64,000 nt of DNA from Alcanivorax sp. DG881 (GTDB taxonomy: Bacteria; Pseudomonadota; Gammaproteobacteria; Pseudomonadales; Alcanivoracaceae): the NCBI RefSeq assembly GCF_000155615.1, contig NZ_DS989915.1:2681662-2745661 (forward strand), read 5' to 3'. A program made the position numbers and the translations under genes. The notes beneath the pieces are model-generated. The model searched no databases, was not told the origin of the DNA, and saw only the letters and a list, made by a program, of their open reading frames with translations. Positions within the stretch are counted from its first letter, which is position 1. Each line of letters opens with the position of its first letter. Shown piece after piece: positions 3,892 to 60,982 of the stretch.

Positions 3892-3990
3892 AAGTTGTCG
3901 ATGAAAGTGAAAAGTGCAAAGTGAAAATGCGGAGGGGCGTGTGGCCGCCCACCTGAAATTCAGCTCCGTTCCTTCGCGTTTTTCAGCTTG
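3892..3990 (+). repeat. Heptad-repeat element (AAGTGAA words)
   Basis: Directly after the thiolase stop codon the DNA runs in 7-bp words (AAGTGAA, AAGTGCA, AAGTGAA at 3905-3925). A weak inverted arm with CGCGTTTTTCAGCTT lies at about 3974-3989, next to the terminator. It is the most degenerate member of the heptad family, so the right arm is uncertain. Confidence 0.45.
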
Positions 3991-4028
3991 AAAAAAAGCC
4001 GCCCTGGTTTTCCGGGGCGGCTTTTTTT
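3991..4028 (+). terminator. Rho-independent terminator of thiolase
   Basis: A perfect AAGCCGCC/GGCGGCTT stem flanked by A7 and T7 runs forms a classical intrinsic terminator about 100 bp after the thiolase stop. The A-run makes it potentially bidirectional. Confidence 0.92.
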
Positions 4029-4098
4029 GGTTCATTGCGGAATGAAGTGATCAGCCAGCTTCAGAGCTTGTCGCATTATCCCGCCCTGGCAACCGCTG

Positions 4099-4293
4099 GA
4101 CGCCTGATGCTCGACGACGGACGCTTGCATTCAAAACCTGAACACCTTGGCCGCCAGGCTCTCTGCGCAAAATGCATTACCCGATAGTTGCCTGAATGAT
4201 GACTCTGAACACCCCTCAAAGGAGAGGCCGCAATAACGACAACCTCTCAGGCTATGGGGTTTTACGTCAGGCATCCGGCGTCTAGCGTTTGGC
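4099..4293 (+). repeat. Long heptad element, copy A
   Basis: The left end is made of 7-bp words (GACGCCT, GATGCTC, GACGACG, GACGCTT at 4099-4126). The right end is made of inverted-type words (GTCAGGC, ATCCGGC, GTCTAGC, GTTTGGC at 4266-4293). The core of about 140 bp is clearly homologous to 60771-60956, including a 30-bp stretch identical between the copies. It contains no credible ORF and lies in the thiolase-HupE intergenic region. Confidence 0.8.
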
Positions 4294-4387
4294 AAAGTGC
4301 CGGGTATTCGCGATAAATCCATCAGACGGCGAAAAGCGAGTCATTCACTCTAATCCGCGAAGAACCTTTTCTAGCGCACGGTTTTAT

Positions 4388-4420: not shown

Positions 4421-4526
4421 AGTCACGAGTCACGAGTCACGAGTTTCGAGGAGCGAAGTTCAGAACCGGAAGCCCTCTCTTTGGATCTTGGGTTTTGCCT
4501 TTCGCAACTCGTCACTCGTATCTCGA
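4421..4526 (+). repeat. Heptad-repeat element (AGTCACG words)
   Basis: The left arm is AGTCACG three times followed by AGTTTCG and AGGAGCG (4421-4455). The right arm (about 4499-4526) is built from CTTTCGC, AACTCGT, CACTCGT and ATCTCGA, the inverted counterparts. Related elements with the same words lie at 16434 and 43731. It lies 77 bp past the HupE stop codon. Confidence 0.8.
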
Positions 4527-6896: not shown

Positions 6897-7110
6897 CCTC
6901 GTTGCTGTTGGTCTGGTTCCGGAAGCGCAGGTTGTTCACGCTAACCGGGTCGGTGGTGTCACTGGTGGCGGCCAGCTGGGTTTTCACAAAGACCGTGTAG
7001 TCCACCGTGGCTTGTGCACGGGGCGGTGGCGGATCGTTGTCATCGTCACCGCCGCAGGCCACAAGCCCGAGGGTCGCCAGCGAAACCGTGGTTGCCAGTA
7101 ATAAACGCAT
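6871..7110 (-). CDS. Small lipoprotein of the DUF4331 cluster
   Basis: The 79-residue product begins MRLLLATTVSLATLG and has the lipobox LVAC followed by GGDDDNDPPPP, a typical acidic, proline-rich linker after a lipidated cysteine. The start at 7110 is preferred because GGAGGAC lies just upstream; an upstream ATG at 7164 would extend into the preceding gene without a signal sequence. The mature part of about 50 residues matches no family I recognise. It lies between the DUF4331 gene (25 bp upstream) and the TPR gene, which it overlaps by 26 bp. It may be an anchor or cap for the secreted DUF4331 and TPR proteins (inference). Confidence 0.78.
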   Translation of the reverse strand: MRLLLATTVSLATLGLVACGGDDDNDPPPPRAQATVDYTVFVKTQLAATSDTTDPVSVNNLRFRNQTNSNEDAYNSVLD

Positions 7111-12156: not shown

Positions 12157-12639
12157 ATGCCTGTGAATGATGAGATGAAAGCGGATCTGTGGCGTTTTGC
12201 GCTGGGGCGCTGGCAGGACAAGCGGTTCGAGAAAGCCTGCCTGCATCTGCAGGACGACTATCAGGTGCCGGTGTCGCTGCTGCTGTGCGGCTTGTGGCTG
12301 GCGGCGTCGGGCAAGCAGCCGGATGCCCGGACGGGTCGACGGTTGGCGGAGCTGGCGGAGCAGTTCGAAGCGGATTATCTGCGCCCGCTGCGCCAGGTTC
12401 GCCGCAAGGCTGCACAGGATGACCGCTTGCCCGAGTTCAAACGCCAACTCCAGCAGGTGGAGCTGGAGGGCGAGCGCTGGTTGCTGACCACCCTGCCTTC
12501 TTTGTGCGAGAACCTGTTGCCGGCAGGCAAGCCGGTGGACCCGATGGGCTGGTTGCTGGTGCTGATTCCGGAAACGGCGCAGTGTGAGGGATTGCAGGAA
12601 GGGCTGAGCCGCCTGGCCGAGTTGAAAGTGGAAAGTTGA
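12157..12639 (+). CDS. TIGR02444-family protein
   Basis: A 160-residue protein with the opening D-L-W-R-F-A-L-G-R-W and the conserved A-C-L-H-L-Q-D-x-Y-x-V-P-V-S-L-L-L-C-G-L-W-L of TIGR02444, a proteobacterial family of unknown function often found beside the ABC-F gene, as here (divergent, 116 bp apart). The start is uncertain among ATG 12157, GTG 12163 and ATG 12175; GGAGG at 12141 supports 12157. The last six codons (L-K-V-E-S-stop) are encoded by the left arm of a heptad-repeat element, so the natural C-terminus has been set by that element. Confidence 0.85.
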   Translation: MPVNDEMKADLWRFALGRWQDKRFEKACLHLQDDYQVPVSLLLCGLWLAASGKQPDARTGRRLAELAEQFEADYLRPLRQVRRKAAQDDRLPEFKRQLQQVELEGERWLLTTLPSLCENLLPAGKPVDPMGWLLVLIPETAQCEGLQEGLSRLAELKVES

Positions 12640-12804
12640 AAGGCGCGAGCTGGGCAGGGCGGGATTCGAATCAGGCTGTCGTCGCGCCGCAATATAGGCA
12701 AAGACATTGATGCGGTCAGCAATAAGGAGCCGTGGCGCGGTGAGGGCGTTAACGATTTGGCACAAATGCCTGGCGCGCTTTTGAACTTTCAACTTTGAAC
12801 TTTC
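12620..12804 (+). repeat. Heptad-repeat element (AGTTGAA words)
   Basis: The left arm AGTTGAA, AGTGGAA, AGTTGAA, AGGCGCG (12620-12647) is in strict 7-bp phase. The right arm GCGCGCTTTT followed by GAACTTT, CAACTTT, GAACTTT (about 12773-12804) is its inverse. The left arm lies inside the 3' end of the TIGR02444 gene and supplies its TGA stop. The core of about 120 bp is GC-rich and shows no gene. Confidence 0.85.
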
Positions 12805-16433: not shown

Positions 16434-16514
16434 GCGAGTTGTGAGAAGTGAGTTTCGAAAACCAAAACCCCACTCACGGATTTTGCCTTTCGAAACTCGC
16501 TCCTCGTGACTCGC
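16434..16514 (+). repeat. Heptad-repeat element (GTGAGTT/TCGAAAA words)
   Basis: The left arm GCGAGTT, GTGAGAA, GTGAGTT, TCGAAAA (16434-16461) and the right arm CCTTTCG, AAACTCG, CTCCTCG, TGACTCG (about 16487-16514) are in 7-bp phase and inverted. It is the same family as 4421-4526 and 43731-43817. Confidence 0.8.
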
Positions 16515-16623: not shown

Positions 16624-16658
16624 TGCTTCGTGTTGCAGCTTGTAGCTTGCCGCTGCCT
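16624..16658 (-). repeat. Heptad run abutting the rsd stop codon
   Basis: On the plus strand TGCTTCG, TGTTGCA, GCTTGTA, GCTTGCC and GCTGCCT form five 7-bp words ending exactly where the rsd stop codon begins (16659). A degenerate partner arm may lie near 16583-16618 but is not clear. Confidence 0.6.
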
Positions 16659-30250: not shown

Positions 30251-30335
30251 ACGCCTGACGCTTGACGCCGGAGGCCTGACGCTTAAAGTCGGGAGTTCTT
30301 TTCTTTGTCTGGCGTTCGGCGTCCGGCTTCTGGCG
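30251..30335 (+). repeat. Heptad-repeat element between ompR and envZ
   Basis: The left arm reads GACGCTT, GACGCCG, GAGGCCT, GACGCTT and the right arm TCTGGCG, TTCGGCG, TCCGGCT, TCTGGCG (30308-30335), all in 7-bp phase. The arms are inverted relatives. The element fills nearly the whole ompR-envZ gap and leaves 8 bp before the envZ ATG, with no usable Shine-Dalgarno. Confidence 0.85.
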
Positions 30336-43730: not shown

Positions 43731-43817
43731 GTTTCGAGGTCCGAGTTTCGCGTTACGAAAACCTGACATTTTCGCTCTTTCAGGTTTTGCTTTTCGAAAC
43801 TCGCTTCTCGCGACTGC
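43731..43817 (+). repeat. Heptad-repeat element (GTTTCGA words)
   Basis: The left arm GTTTCGA, GGTCCGA, GTTTCGC, GTTACGA, AAACCTG (43731-43765) and the right arm starting TCAGGTTTT, then GCTTTTC, GAAACTC, GCTTCTC, GCGACTG are inverted and in 7-bp phase. The inner AAAACCTGA/TCAGGTTTT match is perfect. It lies between two converging genes. Confidence 0.85.
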
Positions 43818-43889
43818 GGTTGTTTCGCCGCCGGCGACGTCTTCGCTGTGCCGCTTCTGTGGCAGAGCTGACCGGTTTTCAGCAGCCTG

Positions 43890-50288: not shown

Positions 50289-50289
50289 T

Positions 50290-50324
50290 GCGTGTTGCCT
50301 GCAGCGTGAAGCGTGCTGCGTCAG
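50290..50324 (-). repeat. Heptad run abutting the pckA stop codon
   Basis: Read on the plus strand, GCGTGTT, GCCTGCA, GCGTGAA, GCGTGCT and GCGTCAG form five 7-bp words ending exactly at the pckA stop codon (50325). No clear partner arm is visible on the ndh side. Confidence 0.65.
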
Positions 50325-51866: not shown

Positions 51867-52225
51867 GGTTATTCCTGGGCTTGTGGCCGTGCGGTTACAG
51901 CGGGTATGGCCGTGCAACCTTCAAGTTCGCATTGCGGATACACAGTGCCGGTCTCGTGCCCGGACAGAGACCGGACAAGACCAATAAGGGACCAGTAGTG
52001 GCGCCACTGATCAGCACAGGCGCGCGATTATGCCAGAAAAGAGAATCAGTGGCGATTCCCCATCGGACCATGCGGTCACGGCGCCAGAGGCAATTAATAG
52101 TTAATAATGAATAGTGAATAGTTGCGCGGGGCCGCTAGGCCTTGCCTCGGAACGCAAGAGGCCGCACCCAGGCTATGGGCGCGGCCTCTTGCGTTTCAGG
52201 TCAGACAGAACAAAATCGCGAGTTA
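51867..52225. other. Gap between hslO and pckA
   Basis: This 359-bp region holds the pckA promoter side (51867-52080, no box called confidently) and a heptad element with an internal perfect hairpin towards hslO. No gene is seen. Confidence 0.5.
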
Positions 52226-54243: not shown

Positions 54244-54789
54244 ATGGATGAGAAACCGGAGATTCTCGACACCCGGCTGATAGCAAAGAGCCGGCTGTTC
54301 GGGATCGAAGAGCTTCACCTGCGCTTCTCCAACGGCGTTGAGCGCACCTACGAGCGTTTGCGCACCCCGCCGATCGCGGGGGTGATGATGGTGCCCCTGC
54401 TGGATGACGACACCGTGGTGATGATCCGGGAATATGGCGCAGGCACCGAGAGTTATGAGTTGACCCTGCCCAAGGGGGCTTACGAACACGGTGAAGACTG
54501 GCGTGATGCGGCCAACCGGGAGTTAAAGGAAGAAGCCGGTTACGGCGCGCGGCAGCTGAGTCTGATGAAAGAGATGACTCTGTCCCCCGGTTATATGGGA
54601 CACCGCATCAAGGTGGTGCTGGCGGAAGACCTGTACGAAGAATCCCTGCCCGGCGATGAGCCGGAGGAACTGGATGTGGTGCCCTGGAAACTGTCAGAGC
54701 TGGATCGTTTGATCGAACGTGACGATGTGACCGAGGCGCGGGTGATCGCAGCGTTATTAATGACCAAACGGTTGTTAGAGAAAAGATAG
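54244..54789 (+). CDS. nudE: ADP compounds hydrolase NudE
   Basis: The 181-residue Nudix hydrolase has a perfect Nudix box at residues 78-100 (G-x5-E-x7-R-E-L-K-E-E-A-G-Y). NudE splits ADP-ribose, Ap3A and NADH. ATG 54244 has GAGGT upstream. The gene order yrfG/nudE/cysQ is conserved in gammaproteobacteria. The stop codon lies at the start of a heptad element that separates it from cysQ. Confidence 0.95.
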   Translation: MDEKPEILDTRLIAKSRLFGIEELHLRFSNGVERTYERLRTPPIAGVMMVPLLDDDTVVMIREYGAGTESYELTLPKGAYEHGEDWRDAANRELKEEAGYGARQLSLMKEMTLSPGYMGHRIKVVLAEDLYEESLPGDEPEELDVVPWKLSELDRLIERDDVTEARVIAALLMTKRLLEKR

Positions 54790-54940
54790 TTGCAAGTTTA
54801 AAGTTGAAAAGCGCGGGTGAGCTGGGCCTCCCGATATATGCCCCGTCCGCGCTTCACATTCCTGGTTCAGCAGCGCGAAGCACTAACCCGCCATCAACGA
54901 TGGGCTGTCTTCGCGCTTTTGAACTTTCAACTTTGAACTC
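54788..54940 (+). repeat. Heptad-repeat element between nudE and cysQ
   Basis: The left arm AGTTGCA, AGTTTAA, AGTTGAA, AAGCGCG (54788-54815) overlaps the nudE stop. The right arm CGCGCTTTT then GAACTTT, CAACTTT, GAACTCC (about 54911-54940) is inverted. It is the same word family as 12620 and 59424. Confidence 0.85.
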
Positions 54941-54975
54941 CGCCCAGAATTCAACATAGAGAAATGGAAAACCCG

Positions 54976-55791
54976 ATGACTGATTTTAATACCCTGCTGG
55001 AACCGCTTGCCGAGATTGCCCGTGAAGCGGGGGACGCCATTCTGGCTGTCTATGAGCGTGATGATCTGGGGGTAGAAACCAAGGATGACAAGTCGCCCAT
55101 TACCGAGGCGGATATGGCGGCGCACAAGATTATTGAGGCCCGCCTGCAGGCGCTGACCCCGGATATCCCGGTGTTTTCCGAAGAATCCGGCGGCATTGCC
55201 TATGCGGATCGCAAGGACTGGCCGCGCTTCTGGCTGGTGGACCCGCTGGATGGCACCAAGGAATTTATCAAGCGTAATGGTGAGTTCACCGTCAACATCG
55301 CGCTGGTGGAAGGCGAGACCCCGGTGCTGGGCGTGGTGCATGTGCCGGTAACGGCAGTGACCTACCTGGGCGGCCAGGGTGTGGGTGCCTTTAAAGAGCA
55401 CAACGGTGAGCGCCAGGCGATTCAATGCCGTGCCCGCACCACGCCGGTGGTAATGGTCGCCAGCCGTAGCCATGGTGGCGAGGCGGTGGAAAAGCTGGAA
55501 GCCTTTATCCGTGACGAAGTGGGCGAGGTGGAGCGCGCCTCCATGGGGTCGTCGCTGAAGCTGTGCCTGGTGGCGGAAGGCAGCGCGGACATTTACCCGC
55601 GCCTGGCGCCCACCAGCGAGTGGGATACCGCCGCCGCCCACGCGGTGGTGACGGCTGCGGGCGGGGTGGTGGTGAACACCGCCTTCGAGCCGTTGCAGTA
55701 CAATAAGGAAGATATTCTCAATCCGCACTTCCTGGTGCTGGGGCAGAGCATTGAAGAATGGCGTTTTATCGCCCCGGCGTTGAACGCTTGA
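54976..55791 (+). CDS. cysQ: 3'(2'),5'-bisphosphate nucleotidase CysQ
   Basis: The 271-residue enzyme hydrolyses PAP to AMP during sulfate assimilation. It has the inositol-monophosphatase fold metal motifs F-S-E-E-S-G near 67-72, D-P-L-D-G-T at 89-94 and W-D-T-A-A-A-H-A near 220. Start 54976 (MTDFNTLL) agrees with the family; ATG 54964, four codons earlier, is possible. The stop codon lies in the first word of a heptad element. Confidence 0.94.
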   Translation: MTDFNTLLEPLAEIAREAGDAILAVYERDDLGVETKDDKSPITEADMAAHKIIEARLQALTPDIPVFSEESGGIAYADRKDWPRFWLVDPLDGTKEFIKRNGEFTVNIALVEGETPVLGVVHVPVTAVTYLGGQGVGAFKEHNGERQAIQCRARTTPVVMVASRSHGGEAVEKLEAFIRDEVGEVERASMGSSLKLCLVAEGSADIYPRLAPTSEWDTAAAHAVVTAAGGVVVNTAFEPLQYNKEDILNPHFLVLGQSIEEWRFIAPALNA

Positions 55792-55880
55792 AGCCAGATG
55801 CATGAAGCATGACGCTAAAGAGTAGAACCTGAAGACAGGGGTGCAGCCACGTCACAAACGCATGCTGCATTGCAATGCAG
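55786..55880 (+). repeat. Heptad-repeat element after cysQ
   Basis: The left arm GCTTGAA, GCCAGAT, GCATGAA, GCATGAC, GCTAAAG (55786-55820) contains the cysQ TGA. A right arm with GCATGCT, GCATTGC, AATGCAG (about 55860-55880) is a plausible inverse. Confidence 0.7.
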
Positions 55881-57922: not shown

Positions 57923-59422
57923 ATGTCCAATAAACACGTTGATGTACTGATTGTTGGCGCCGGCCTTTCCGGTATTGGTGCCGCTTGCCATTTAACCCGC
58001 AAGGCGCCGAATCGCACCTACGCTATCCTGGAGCGTCGCGAACGCATCGGCGGCACCTGGGACCTGTTCAAGTACCCGGGCATTCGTTCTGATTCCGACA
58101 TGTTTACTCTGGGCTACAGCTTTCGCCCCTGGACCGAGCCCAAGGTATTGGCCGATGGCAACTCGATTCGCCAGTACGTGGAAGAGACCGCGGAAGAGTA
58201 TGACGTTAAAAAACATATCCGTTTTGGTCGCAAGGTGATCAAGGCGAACTGGTCCAGCGCTGACAATCACTGGGCGGTGGAAACCATCAACGAGAAGACC
58301 GGCGAGCAGGAAACCTTTACCGCCAACTTCCTGTTCTCCTGTAGCGGTTACTATAACTACGACGAAGGCTACAAACCGGATTTCCCCGGCGAGAAAGACT
58401 TCAAGGGCCAGGTGATTCATCCGCAGCACTGGCCGGAAAACCTGGATTACAAAGGCAAGAAAGTGGTGGTGATCGGTTCCGGCGCTACTGCCGTCACCCT
58501 GGTGCCGGCCATGGCCAAAGAAGGCGCCAACGTTACCATGTTGCAACGTTCGCCGACCTATATTGCCACGGTGCCGGAAGTGGACCCGATCTCGGTGGGC
58601 ATGCGTCGCTTTATGCCGGAGATGATGGTTTACCGCCTAGCCCGTGCCCGCAACATCGGGCTTCAGCGTATGGTGTACAAGTTATCCAAGCAGCGTCCCA
58701 AGCTGGTGCGCCGAGCCTTGTTGGCAGCGGCCAAGCGTCAGCTGGGTGATGACGTGGATATGACCCACTTCCGCCCAAGCTACAATCCGTGGGACGAGCG
58801 TTTGTGTGCCGTGCCCAATGGCGATTTGTTCAAGACGTTGCGTCGCGGTGAGGCCGAGATCGTTACCGATCACATTGAGCGTTTCACCGAGACCGGCATC
58901 CTGCTCAAGTCAGGTAAGGCGCTGGAAGCCGATATCATCATCACCGCGACCGGTCTCAACGTTCAGATGTTGGGTGGCGTGGAAGGGACTATCGATGGCA
59001 AGCCGGTGGAGCCGCGTGAATCACTGGTCTATAAGGGCATGATGCTGCGCGATGTGCCCAACATGGCGTTGGTGTTTGGTTACACCAACTCGTCCTGGAC
59101 CCTGAAAGCGGACCTGGTGTGCGAGTACGTGTGCCGCTTGCTCAACCATATGGAAAAAACCGGTGCCCAGACCGTGATTCCCCGTGACAAGGATAACTGC
59201 ATCACCGACGAGAATTTCCTTGGCTTGCAGTCTGGCTACATCCAGCGGGCCAATGACCGCCTGCCTCGTCAGGGCTCCAAGCAGCCGTGGATGGTGGTGC
59301 AGAATTACATGGTTGATATGCCCAAGCTGCGTTTTGGCGCCATTGATGACGGGGTTCTGGAGTTCGATAACCATCAGCCGGTGAAAAAGAAAGGGTTGGT
59401 GGCGTCGTTACTGGGATCCTGA
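57923..59422 (+). CDS. almA: AlmA-type long-chain alkane monooxygenase (FMO)
   Basis: The 499-residue flavoprotein has an FAD motif G-A-G-L-S-G at 12-17, an NADPH motif G-S-G-A-T-A at 185-190 and F-K-G-Q-V-I-H-P-Q-H-W at 160-170, the FMO/BVMO fingerprint. Stretches such as ERRERIGGTWDLFKYPGIRS, CSGYYNYDEGY and LQRSPTYIATVPEVDPIS follow the AlmA proteins of Acinetobacter and Alcanivorax closely as I recall them, and the length fits. AlmA acts on n-alkanes longer than about C30 in those genera. GGAGGT precedes the ATG. It is monocistronic and ends in a heptad element with a terminator. Confidence 0.88.
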   Translation: MSNKHVDVLIVGAGLSGIGAACHLTRKAPNRTYAILERRERIGGTWDLFKYPGIRSDSDMFTLGYSFRPWTEPKVLADGNSIRQYVEETAEEYDVKKHIRFGRKVIKANWSSADNHWAVETINEKTGEQETFTANFLFSCSGYYNYDEGYKPDFPGEKDFKGQVIHPQHWPENLDYKGKKVVVIGSGATAVTLVPAMAKEGANVTMLQRSPTYIATVPEVDPISVGMRRFMPEMMVYRLARARNIGLQRMVYKLSKQRPKLVRRALLAAAKRQLGDDVDMTHFRPSYNPWDERLCAVPNGDLFKTLRRGEAEIVTDHIERFTETGILLKSGKALEADIIITATGLNVQMLGGVEGTIDGKPVEPRESLVYKGMMLRDVPNMALVFGYTNSSWTLKADLVCEYVCRLLNHMEKTGAQTVIPRDKDNCITDENFLGLQSGYIQRANDRLPRQGSKQPWMVVQNYMVDMPKLRFGAIDDGVLEFDNHQPVKKKGLVASLLGS

Positions 59423-59423
59423 A

Positions 59424-59640
59424 TCAAAGTTAAAAGTTAAAAGTTAAAAGTTAAAAGGAAAAGAGTGGTTAAGCAGTAGTGTTGCCGGGTTAGGGTAGTG
59501 CTTCGCGCCGCCCACAAAAAAGGCCGCATCCTGTAGAGGGTGCGGCCTTTTTATTGTTCATCAGTTTGCCTGCGCGGGCAGAGCCAGAGACGCTTAGCCA
59601 CCTGTCCTGTTCGCGCTTTTCAACTTTGAACTTTTAACTC
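59424..59640 (+). repeat. Heptad-repeat element after almA (TTAAAAG words)
   Basis: The left arm is four almost perfect copies of AAAGTTA (59426-59453). The right arm CGCGCTTTT, CAACTTT, GAACTTT, TAACTCG (about 59612-59640) is inverted. It begins two bases after the almA stop codon and encloses a bidirectional terminator. It is the clearest heptad element here. Confidence 0.88.
59516..59552. terminator. Bidirectional terminator between almA and nitronate monooxygenase gene
   Basis: AAAAAAGGCCGCATC and GTGCGGCCTTTTT form a stem with A- and T-runs on both sides, set between convergent genes. Confidence 0.9.
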
Positions 59641-59646
59641 GACACT

Positions 59647-60612
59647 TTATTTCCAGGGCAACGCTTCCATGCGCTGGCGGGCGGCGGAGTATTCTTGCTT
59701 CAGGCGCGCGATCAGATCGGCAGCCGGGCCGATCTTCTTCACCGCACCGATGCCCTGGCCGCTGCCCCAGATGTCCTTCCAGGCTTTGGAGCTGCCATCA
59801 CCGAAATCCATTTTGGACGGATCGCTTTCCGGCAGGTTTTCCGGGTCCAGGCCTGCCGCTTCAATGGAATTGCGCAGGTAGTTGCCATGGACGCCGGTGA
59901 ACAGGTTGGAATAGATAATGTCGTTGGCGCTGCCGTCCACGATGGACTGTTTATAGCGTTCGTCGGCATTGGCTTCATCGGTAGCGATGAAGGCGGAGCC
60001 GATGTAGCCCAGGTCGGCGCCCATGGCCTGGGCGGCCAGCACTGAATCGCCTGTGGCGATGGCGCCGGAAAGCAGCAGCGGGCCGTCGAACCATTCACGG
60101 ATTTCCTGCACCAGCGCCAGTGGCGACAGGGTGCCGGCATGCCCGCCCGCGCCTGAAGCCACGGCGATCAGGCCATCAGCACCTTTCTCGATGGCTTTTT
60201 TGGCGAAGAAGTTATTGATGATGTCGTGAAACACCAGGCCGCCATAGCTGTGGATGGCTTCGTTCACATCCACCCGGGCCCCCAGGGAAGTGATCACGAT
60301 GGGCACCTTGTACTTCACGCACATTTCCAGGTCGTGCTCCAGCCGGTTATTGGACTTGTGCACAATCTGGTTGACCGCGAAGGGGGCGGCAGGCTTGTCA
60401 GGGTTGGCCTGGTTCCAGGCATCCAGCTCTTCGGTAATACGCTTGAGCCACACTTCCAGTTCTTCCGCAGGGCGGGCATTCAGCGCAGGAAAAGAGCCAA
60501 CAATGCCGGCTTTGCACTGGGCAATGACCAGATCCGGGTTGGAAACAATGAACATGGGCGATGCCACAACGGGCAGCTGCAGGCTGTTTTGCAGGGAGGC
60601 AGGTAGGGCCAT
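59647..60612 (-). CDS. Nitronate monooxygenase/2-nitropropane dioxygenase-like FMN enzyme
   Basis: The 321-residue TIM-barrel flavoprotein has V-V-A-S-P-M-F near the start, I-A-V-A-S-G-A-G-G-H-A-G with the catalytic-type histidine, L-L-S-G-A-I-A-T-G-D-S-V for FMN phosphate and G-A-D-L-G-Y-I-G-S-A-F. These match the NAD(P)H-dependent flavin oxidoreductase/nitronate monooxygenase family. The physiological substrate is unknown. It is convergent with almA and separated by a shared terminator. Confidence 0.9.
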   Translation of the reverse strand: MALPASLQNSLQLPVVASPMFIVSNPDLVIAQCKAGIVGSFPALNARPAEELEVWLKRITEELDAWNQANPDKPAAPFAVNQIVHKSNNRLEHDLEMCVKYKVPIVITSLGARVDVNEAIHSYGGLVFHDIINNFFAKKAIEKGADGLIAVASGAGGHAGTLSPLALVQEIREWFDGPLLLSGAIATGDSVLAAQAMGADLGYIGSAFIATDEANADERYKQSIVDGSANDIIYSNLFTGVHGNYLRNSIEAAGLDPENLPESDPSKMDFGDGSSKAWKDIWGSGQGIGAVKKIGPAADLIARLKQEYSAARQRMEALPWK

Positions 60613-60770
60613 GGGAACTCCTCAACTCTCACGGTGAGCGCCACCGGGAAAAGGCGGGGCGCTTTCAGGGGCACAATAGTGCGATATAGCTGCGGCGATG
60701 TCAGCACCGGGAAGCGACAATCAGGGCGCGAATATGGACGTGCTGCCCAGGCCTGCCAGCCCTGACCACC

Positions 60771-60956
60771 GCTGGAAGCCGAATGCCCGACGGCAGACGC
60801 GGGTATTCAAAACCTGAAAATCCTGGCCGCCATGCTCTTTGCGCACAAGGCCTTACCCGATATTCCCTGAATATCCCTCAGCAGGAGAGACCGCAATAGC
60901 GGCAGTCTTTCAGGCTATGGGGTTTTACGTCAGGCATCCGGCGCCGGGCGTTTGGC
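60771..60956 (+). repeat. Long heptad element, copy B
   Basis: The left words GCTGGAA, GCCGAAT, GCCCGAC, GGCAGAC (60771-60798) and right words GTCAGGC, ATCCGGC, GCCGGGC, GTTTGGC (60929-60956) are in 7-bp phase. The core matches 4099-4293 with small indels. The shared tail TTCGCGATAAATC continues to within a few bases of the DUF4282 gene stop (60983). Confidence 0.8.
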
Positions 60957-60982
60957 AAAGTAAGGTTTATTCGCGATAAATC

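Follow-up and report, generated by a model that had tools for sequence, protein, structure and literature searches.

We analysed a stretch of 64,000 bp from Alcanivorax sp. DG881 (contig NZ_DS989915.1, positions 2,681,662 to 2,745,661; hereafter the window, numbered from its first base), and in particular an intergenic element near position 59,424 that is built from degenerate seven-base words (heptads) in inverted arms. The element lies between convergent genes and adjoins the stop codon of the gene ending at 59422. Its left arm includes 4.6 copies of AAAGTTA (59426-59457), and its 161-bp core contains a GGCCGCATCC...GGGTGCGGCC hairpin. The original prediction, made from the sequence alone, placed it with 14 other window loci in a single family that might be a new class of mobile or structural repeat. 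Mobile or structural is still the best reading of what we found; a single class for all 15 loci is not. The element belongs to a superfamily of roughly 150-bp elements (the main superfamily below) that occurs in many copies and usually stands beside gene ends.

Heptads, inverted arms and gene ends

The reality of the seven-base signal was assessed in an even sample of the home chromosome, 20 stretches of 20 kb (400 kb) at sites that were not hand-picked, against dinucleotide shuffles, with intergenic and coding DNA scored apart. Intergenic identity exceeded the shuffles at lags 7, 14 and 21 (z = 6.2, 7.4 and 6.5), and coding DNA had no excess at lags 7 and 14. Several multiples of 3 (lags 3, 9, 18 and 33) were raised too in intergenic DNA, which we put down to coding DNA missed by the gene caller, a simple codon-score script that overlooks some genes. 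Lag-7 segments scoring at least 12 numbered 33 in intergenic DNA vs 7.2 in shuffles. About seven such segments appear equally in shuffles and at neighbouring lags; these are attributed to masked N runs, as seen by inspection and not by removal. Such runs (in stretches L005 and L009-L028, e.g., L011, L013 and L025) appear to fake periodicity at every lag unless excluded. Gaps containing them were left out of the gap scan for lag-7 segments, and a segment scoring at least 11 was present in 25 of 174 sampled gaps. Reverse-complement partners scoring at least 12 were identified for 38 of the 67 arrays (score of at least 9) in the window and sample, vs 0.2% of shuffled trials. The enrichment of 7-bp periodicity and inverted arms over shuffled intergenic DNA that had been anticipated was found, and these shuffle tests argue against chance as the source of the arrays and arms.

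The plan of the main superfamily is heptads, CGCG, core, CGCG, inverted heptads, over about 150 bp. Each end has about four heptads (type word AGTT-N-AA) and then CGCG, the right end being the reverse complement of the left, with about 90 bp between. Of 28 loci fetched from the congener G008, 24 passed a filter on arms and length and can be aligned as a single element, 146-183 bp long (150-160 bp in 17 copies); the other four have arms with longer spans. The consensus consists of AGTTgAAAGTTtAAAGTTCAAAGTTGAAAAGCGCG, about 90 bp holding a central palindrome TGCCCGCG...CGCGGGCA, and then CGCGTTTcAACTTTgAACTTTnAACTTTcAACT, with arms that end sharply and CGCG as a landmark at four places. Between the 24 copies, identity is 0.970 at the six fixed heptad positions and 0.457 at the free seventh, in a set that was obtained by arm similarity and then filtered for conserved arms and length, so that arm conservation is partly selected. 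Cores are 0.587 identical between copies vs 0.516 for shuffled cores. When both arms of an element are compared, their free bases agree at 0.50, hardly above the 0.45 for arms taken from different elements. As slippage or hairpin copying would carry the seventh base along, the arms look conserved as a sequence that is read, and the expectation that simple slippage would not explain them is borne out.

A survey of paired arms covered about 1.1 Mb and 496 gaps from the home genome and 16 congeners, and returned 68 cases in 67 gaps. These cases cover all kinds of element, count orthologs of one another, and include at least one non-heptad element (CACAGAG-type, at 7038 of G003 stretch L038) and one single long array. 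Orientation counts keep all of these; pair statistics drop two rows (an arm longer than 60 bp and an arm with N). Lag-7 identity within arms separates the phases into five at 0.70-0.84 and two at 0.48 and 0.42; for pairing between arms the corresponding values are 0.86-0.93 for the five, and 0.77 and 0.59 for the two. CGCG occurs at both inner ends in 29 of 67 pairs and at one end in 14. Arm polarity is left in 54 of 66 pairs, reverse in eight and tied in four, by a GY rule that was chosen after the words had been seen. Another dispersed inverted repeat, with CACAGAGGGCACAGAG-like arms, was observed at L038 7038-7122 and in the G002 ortholog of L273:16659.

A near-identical hairpin, GAGGCCGCGCCC...GGGCGCGGCCTC, occurs in elements of differing words at different loci, namely in cores at the b-hsp33 and fmo-nmo gaps of several congeners, as would be expected from a modular exchange of arms and cores. 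We also considered that the arms provide stop codons in all frames. Judged by eye, this fits AAAGT words (free base G, A or T) and does not fit CAAGC or CACGC words.

Arms are placed at gene ends. They were identified in 25 of 154 gaps between genes on the forward strand (++), 24 of 159 on the reverse strand (--) and 16 of 82 convergent gaps, and divergent gaps are avoided (2 of 101, vs 65 of 395 other gaps, p = 2.7e-5). One of the two divergent cases is the window element at 12620-12801. In 50 co-directional gaps the median distance is 3 bp between the upstream stop and the element, and 64 bp between the element and the start codon that follows (p = 5e-6). Overlap with the stop is seen in 22 of these gaps, and in 40 the element either overlaps the stop or begins no more than 15 nt from it. 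Control inverted repeats (24) are also stop-biased, less so, with medians of 19 bp to the stop and 68 bp to the start (p = 0.011) and nine within 15 nt of a stop (elements vs controls, p = 0.001). Several TGA stops in G008 take their last A from the element, and the NUDIX gene that ends at 54789 has a TAG stop of which two bases are the first two of the window element at 54788-54939.

Distribution and turnover between species

We built a covariance model (R1) from 23 G008 copies of the main superfamily. It matches 17 of 17 genomes of the genus at E<=0.001, with 11 to at least 150 matches per genome (counts take both strands and are, here and below, among the matches listed). In the 400-kb home sample it finds 11 places at E<0.01. 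Full-length matches span six words (AAAGT, CAAGT, CAAGC, CGAGC, ACAGT and ATAGT). Of 95 genomes sampled from the order, three have matches at E<=1e-4: the home genome, and two from a second genus in its family.

The copy number of the AAAGT word is very different between congeners. Three successive AGTTNAA heptads (the two strands given separately, overlaps counted) match 203+207 times in G008, 44+20 times in the home genome and 0+1 times in G006. Reversed-pattern controls match 3+5, 12+1 and 0+0 times, respectively, that is 0 to 12 per strand. G005 and G015 also have almost no matches to the AGTTNAA pattern. Superfamily copies are much denser at 3.44-3.75 Mb of G008 contig C1 than in three other regions sampled, with 16 copies of at least 97 bits in 100 kb vs one 38-bit match in 60 kb elsewhere, all of these regions having been picked after the matches were seen; the density may reflect the origin, the terminus or local hopping.

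Heptad arrays also occur elsewhere. Four successive CAAGCNN heptads are present in 5 of 369 genomes of the class; G315, a gammaproteobacterium from a different family, accounts for 29+24 matches with overlaps counted, and inverted partners exist there. The reversed control, four successive CGAACNN heptads, has 18, 7 and 6 matches in the gammaproteobacteria G108, G328 and G357; since a control pattern has matches, up to 18 per genome, arrays of other words occur elsewhere. AAAGT arrays are present in many phyla (among the matches listed). A partner scoring at least 14 was found for 13 of 120, always on the right, in a count that includes one locus twice and one from a relative of the genus. In 15 stretches inspected from 14 AAAGT-array loci, several partners are weak or not visible in the stretch.

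In some stretches, words change at kept sites. The gap between the NUDIX and inositol phosphatase genes was mapped in 15 congeners. The arms have AAAGT words in G011 and G008, as in the home genome, CAAGC- or CGAGC-type words in G002, G010, G016 and G012, and CGAGT words in G004 and G009. No lag-7 array was detected in this gap in G007, G015, G003, G001, G006, G014 or G005. In G009, the ortholog of window positions 54790-54963 carries a pure run of about 40 CTCGAAA heptads in place of the short arms of other species. Hairpins of the form GTAGGAGCGGCGC...GCGCCGCTCCTAC occupy gaps where other species have heptad elements (the NUDIX-inositol phosphatase gap in L036-L051; G003/G001 synteny). These look like repetitive extragenic palindromes (REPs) of GTAG type, possibly repeats of this genus linked to REP-associated tyrosine transposases (RAYTs).

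For five G008 elements, 15 of 20 orthologous gaps could be mapped; by eye, 13 of these keep heptad arms, 11 of them with another word, and the gene flanks align close up to the arms. Automated scoring of G008 stretch L273 gave retention at 8 of 11 sites vs 1 of 18 control gaps (p = 3e-4), and scoring by single arrays in G008 gave 10 of 14 vs 1 of 15 (p = 5e-4). Retention in the home window was not significant, either by the automated scoring of sites (7 of 20 vs 13 of 47, p = 0.57) or by single arrays (22 of 50 vs 4 of 17, p = 0.16). Between species pairs at 91-95% identity, heptad sites differ by the whole gap and not by a clean insertion.

Kinds of element in the window

The 15 loci mix at least three kinds: the main superfamily of about 150 bp, short CGAGT-armed elements, GACGC-armed repeats including one that resembles a miniature inverted-repeat transposable element (MITE), and single or weak arrays (Table 1). 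The idea of one family for all of them was rejected, as an all-against-all comparison of 231 intergenic stretches groups loci largely by word and R1 (E<=1) matches only 12620, 54788 and 59424 in the window. The constant layout that had been described holds within each kind and not across the 15 loci, and the statement that most have both arms was too strong, given that the arm detector pairs only six.

Table 1. Heptad elements and arrays of the window, by kind (positions in the window; the fourth column gives the six pairs found by the arm detector)
Feature	Position	Strand	Detected pair	Description
Focal element, main superfamily	59421..59653		59421-59653	arms score 20; left arm 59421-59456 (AAAGTTA words), right arm 59618-59653
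R1 match to focal element	59428-59646	both strands		66.3 and 54.3 bits
Full-length superfamily member, AAAGT word	54788..54939		54788-54939	arms score 20; R1 73.5 bits; CGCG at both inner ends
Superfamily member, AAAGT word	12620..12801		12620-12801	arms score 20; R1 53.4 bits; CGCG at both inner ends
Left arm of degenerate superfamily copy, ATAGT word	52094..52123			right arm much shorter than in G007
Short CGAGT-armed element	4426..4525		4426-4525	arms score 16; matches other CGAGT elements in sample
Short CGAGT-armed element with inner GAAAACC...GGATTTTGCC	16434..16514		16434-16514	arms score 21; relatives found
Diverged CGAGT-armed element	43735..43834			70-75% over 82-118 bp to four other CGAGT stretches; below arm detector
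MITE-like repeat of ~340 bp	4022..4370		4087-4294	internal GACGC heptad arms 4087-4116 / 4265-4294; arms score 18
Diverged copy of GACGC MITE-like repeat	60756..60982			78% over 241 bp to 4022-4370 copy
Short GACGC-armed inverted pair, marginal	30251..30335			partner 11 vs null maximum 10; Tandem Repeats Finder (TRF) arrays 30251-30282, 30307-30335
Single AAAGTGA array (locus 3892)	3904..3927			inverted partner not significant
Single TTGCAGC array (locus 16624)	16633..16654			partner not significant
Single GCGTG array, common to G007 (locus 50290)	50289..50321			partner not significant
Weak heptad array (locus 55786)	55790..55815			partner not significant

The window copy at 52090 has no R1 match at E<=1; the arms of its G007 ortholog score 30, with an R1 match of 29.9 bits (E 0.0012). 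The loci at 43731 and 60771 are included through homology to relatives only, and no array was picked up by the detectors at locus 17411.

About 20 places in G007 match part or whole of the 4022-4370 repeat at 69-90%. A GACGC-word copy of about 300 bp is cleanly inserted in G007 (at its own 48763), where the site is empty in the home genome. This copy has a 10-bp flanking duplication and ends outside the heptads. For the main superfamily no clean insertion was found in the stretches compared, the whole gap being different where species differ. A further MITE-like element, a repeat of 270-290 bp whose ends resemble GGGAGCCTCTGAATAA...TTATTCAGAGGCTCCC, differs in presence between closely related species at sites that are otherwise little altered (G001, G003 and G016).

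Possible origin and role of the main superfamily

We see an even chance that the main superfamily comprises non-coding, non-autonomous mobile elements similar to REPINs (REP doublets forming hairpins), with ends made of iterated sites, located beside stop codons and read in trans by a putative protein. Such a protein would read the heptads as iterated sites, contacting six of the seven bases, and would copy or move the element. The element would settle beside stop codons and be tolerated there, perhaps providing the stop codon itself and perhaps acting as a structure at the gene end. The word that is read would vary from one subfamily to another. A copy in G012 matches, at 90% over its whole 157 bp, a G008 copy that lies at another location, and this match, together with the uneven AAAGT copy numbers, favours mobility.

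Several observations weigh against this reading. A clean insertion of a superfamily member with an empty orthologous site was not seen in the stretches compared, and no target duplication was found, as no exact repeat of 3-10 bp flanks any of 34 copies. In the G008 stretch the sites stay occupied while the words change, a pattern not expected of free transposition. Taken as a whole, the superfamily is far less variable between congeners than its AAAGT word: G006, with its near absence of successive AGTTNAA heptads, has at least 134 R1 matches, so the copy-number contrast is confined to the AAAGT word. The arm conservation in G008 is in part a product of how the copies were fetched and filtered. 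With one copy as query there was no plasmid or phage match, and on this basis a plasmid or phage origin was set aside. Matches to Y1 transposase (PF01797) were found in 13 of 15 genomes searched, including the 11 that belong to the genus. In none of 30 Y1 loci fetched is the gene flanked on both sides by heptad arrays, which speaks against linkage to RAYTs; nine of the 30 hold some lag-7 array (L208 being partly masked, and with no random-locus baseline for this count). No parent transposon with the same ends was noticed in the stretches compared, which were not scanned systematically for arm pairs that enclose genes.

Alternatively, the elements may be selected gene-end structures, either bidirectional terminators or mRNA 3'-end hairpins, with arms and core paired in RNA and a lost or changed element giving way to another of the same layout. 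The location beside stops, the avoidance of divergent gaps and the retention of sites in the G008 stretch, both by eye and automated, are consistent with this, as is the strong GC hairpin in some cores. Canonical terminators outside the element are fewer at stops with an element (17 of 78, vs 102 of 288 without, p = 0.029). However, a GC hairpin with a T tract lies inside the element at 10 of the 78 stops, and once internal terminators are counted the fractions are equal (27 of 78 vs 102 of 288). Compensatory change was found in 0 of 23 predicted arm pairs of the G008 alignment, and a G-U preference is absent on the transcribed strand (G-U 46 vs A-C 40, p = 0.59). Both results weaken the case for RNA structure as the chief constraint. 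The seventh base shows little matching between arms and retention in the home window is not significant, and we hold selection for gene-end structure to be unlikely as the primary explanation, although it deserves serious weight.

Slippage with hairpin copying would give heptanucleotide microsatellites that expand, with arms kept alike by template switching and without function. The long pure array of about 40 copies in G009, the right arm at 52090 that is shorter in the home genome than in G007, and the b-hsp33 gap, where both arms change word together between species, all fit such a process. Heptamer arrays are also common across phyla, and an excess of heptamer repeats, on which little has been published, is reported for many bacteria (PMC4692102). 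However, such copying should carry all seven bases, and the largely unmatched free base weakens pure slippage or hairpin copying for the AAAGT subfamily; moreover, an architecture of similar full length recurs at many loci. We consider this origin quite improbable. To the arms as iterated chromosomal binding sites of a nucleoid or segregation protein, spread as dispersed operators that are not self-mobile, we give still less credence, as the position-specific conservation in the arms and the dense clustering in G008 (with regions chosen afterwards) agree with it, whereas AAAGT-word arrays that range from about one match to hundreds among congeners and the coexistence of several words within one genome do not.

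No Rfam family reached its gathering score in the window, and no description of a main-superfamily element was found in open-licence papers. Thus, the suggestion that no named element has this design is upheld in so far as no named family with the same layout was found in these sources; as a claim that nothing of the sort is known it was too strong, given the cyanobacterial trnL P6b stems, the inverted heptamers of Xanthomonas, and REPINs, all of which are precedents.

Cyanobacterial short tandemly repeated repetitive (STRR) sequences are linked to the P6b heptanucleotide repeats of the trnL intron. In P6b, degenerate heptanucleotide repeats of the classes TDNGATT and NNTGAGT, with two degenerate positions each, base-pair into a stem (PMC3488679, PMC4476775), and in Nostoc one class has repeatedly been replaced by another at the same place (PMC4476775). 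A seven-base unit with degenerate positions, inverted arms and word replacement in place are features in common with the elements described here. P6b stems differ in that they lie inside one group I intron, whereas the elements are dispersed and intergenic at gene ends, in gaps between called protein genes, and have CGCG landmarks.

REPINs have two conserved inverted ends, a less conserved spacer, hairpin potential and many intergenic copies (PMC3116915), similar to the conserved ends and variable spacer of the G008 copies. REPs were within 15 nt of a stop codon in 260 of 496 cases in one E. coli study and 446 of 4,072 in another (both as given in PMC12306157). REPINs differ in that their ends are GTAG- or CGTC-tagged short palindromes, whereas the elements end in heptad arrays and do not bracket Y1 genes. 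A GTAG or CGTC tag (either strand) lies within 6 bp of the outer end in only 6 of 34 copies, the ends being AGTT heptads. A missing transposase link is not unique to the elements, since CGTC REPs also occur without a dedicated one (PMC3733652). We do not file the superfamily under REPINs because the tag and RAYT features fail as tested, although the general plan agrees.

The GGGNATC heptamers of Xanthomonas and Nostoc are intergenic, under-represented between divergent open reading frames, prefer positions near or overlapping stop codons on the sense strand, and occur at least once in inverted orientation, which could fold into a stem-loop (PMC4692102). They differ in being G-rich and studied as quadruplex formers, and no dispersed two-armed element around a core is described in the portion of that paper considered here. 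In marine Beggiatoaceae, TAACTGA direct repeats form many intergenic sets of one heptamer (PMC4679880); these differ in that most are directly upstream of start codons. MITEs resemble the elements in being short, non-coding and dispersed with inverted ends, and differ from the main superfamily in that neither target duplication nor a parent transposon was found for the latter; the GACGC-armed kind does look MITE-like. Integron attC sites have the ends GTTRRRY / RYYYAAC, and the ends of the arms appear oppositely oriented.

A broader generalization, which we offer tentatively and with considerable doubt, is that a class of mobile or gene-end elements has gone unrecognized in many bacterial phyla. 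Its mark would be heptads in which an informative core is combined with one or two free positions, set in inverted arms whose polarity is constant, and it would be read by a putative protein with sites every 7 bp. Such a class would also cover the cyanobacterial P6b stems and 'heptamer microsatellites'.

The free position, which varies beside six nearly invariant neighbours and is hardly shared between arms, points to the reading of sequence and not to slippage. If the arms are read by a protein, they would represent a novel type of end for such elements, and ideas on how heptamer repeats arise could be put to the test. The placement at stop codons and the change of words at kept sites bear on how bacterial gene ends turn over between species.
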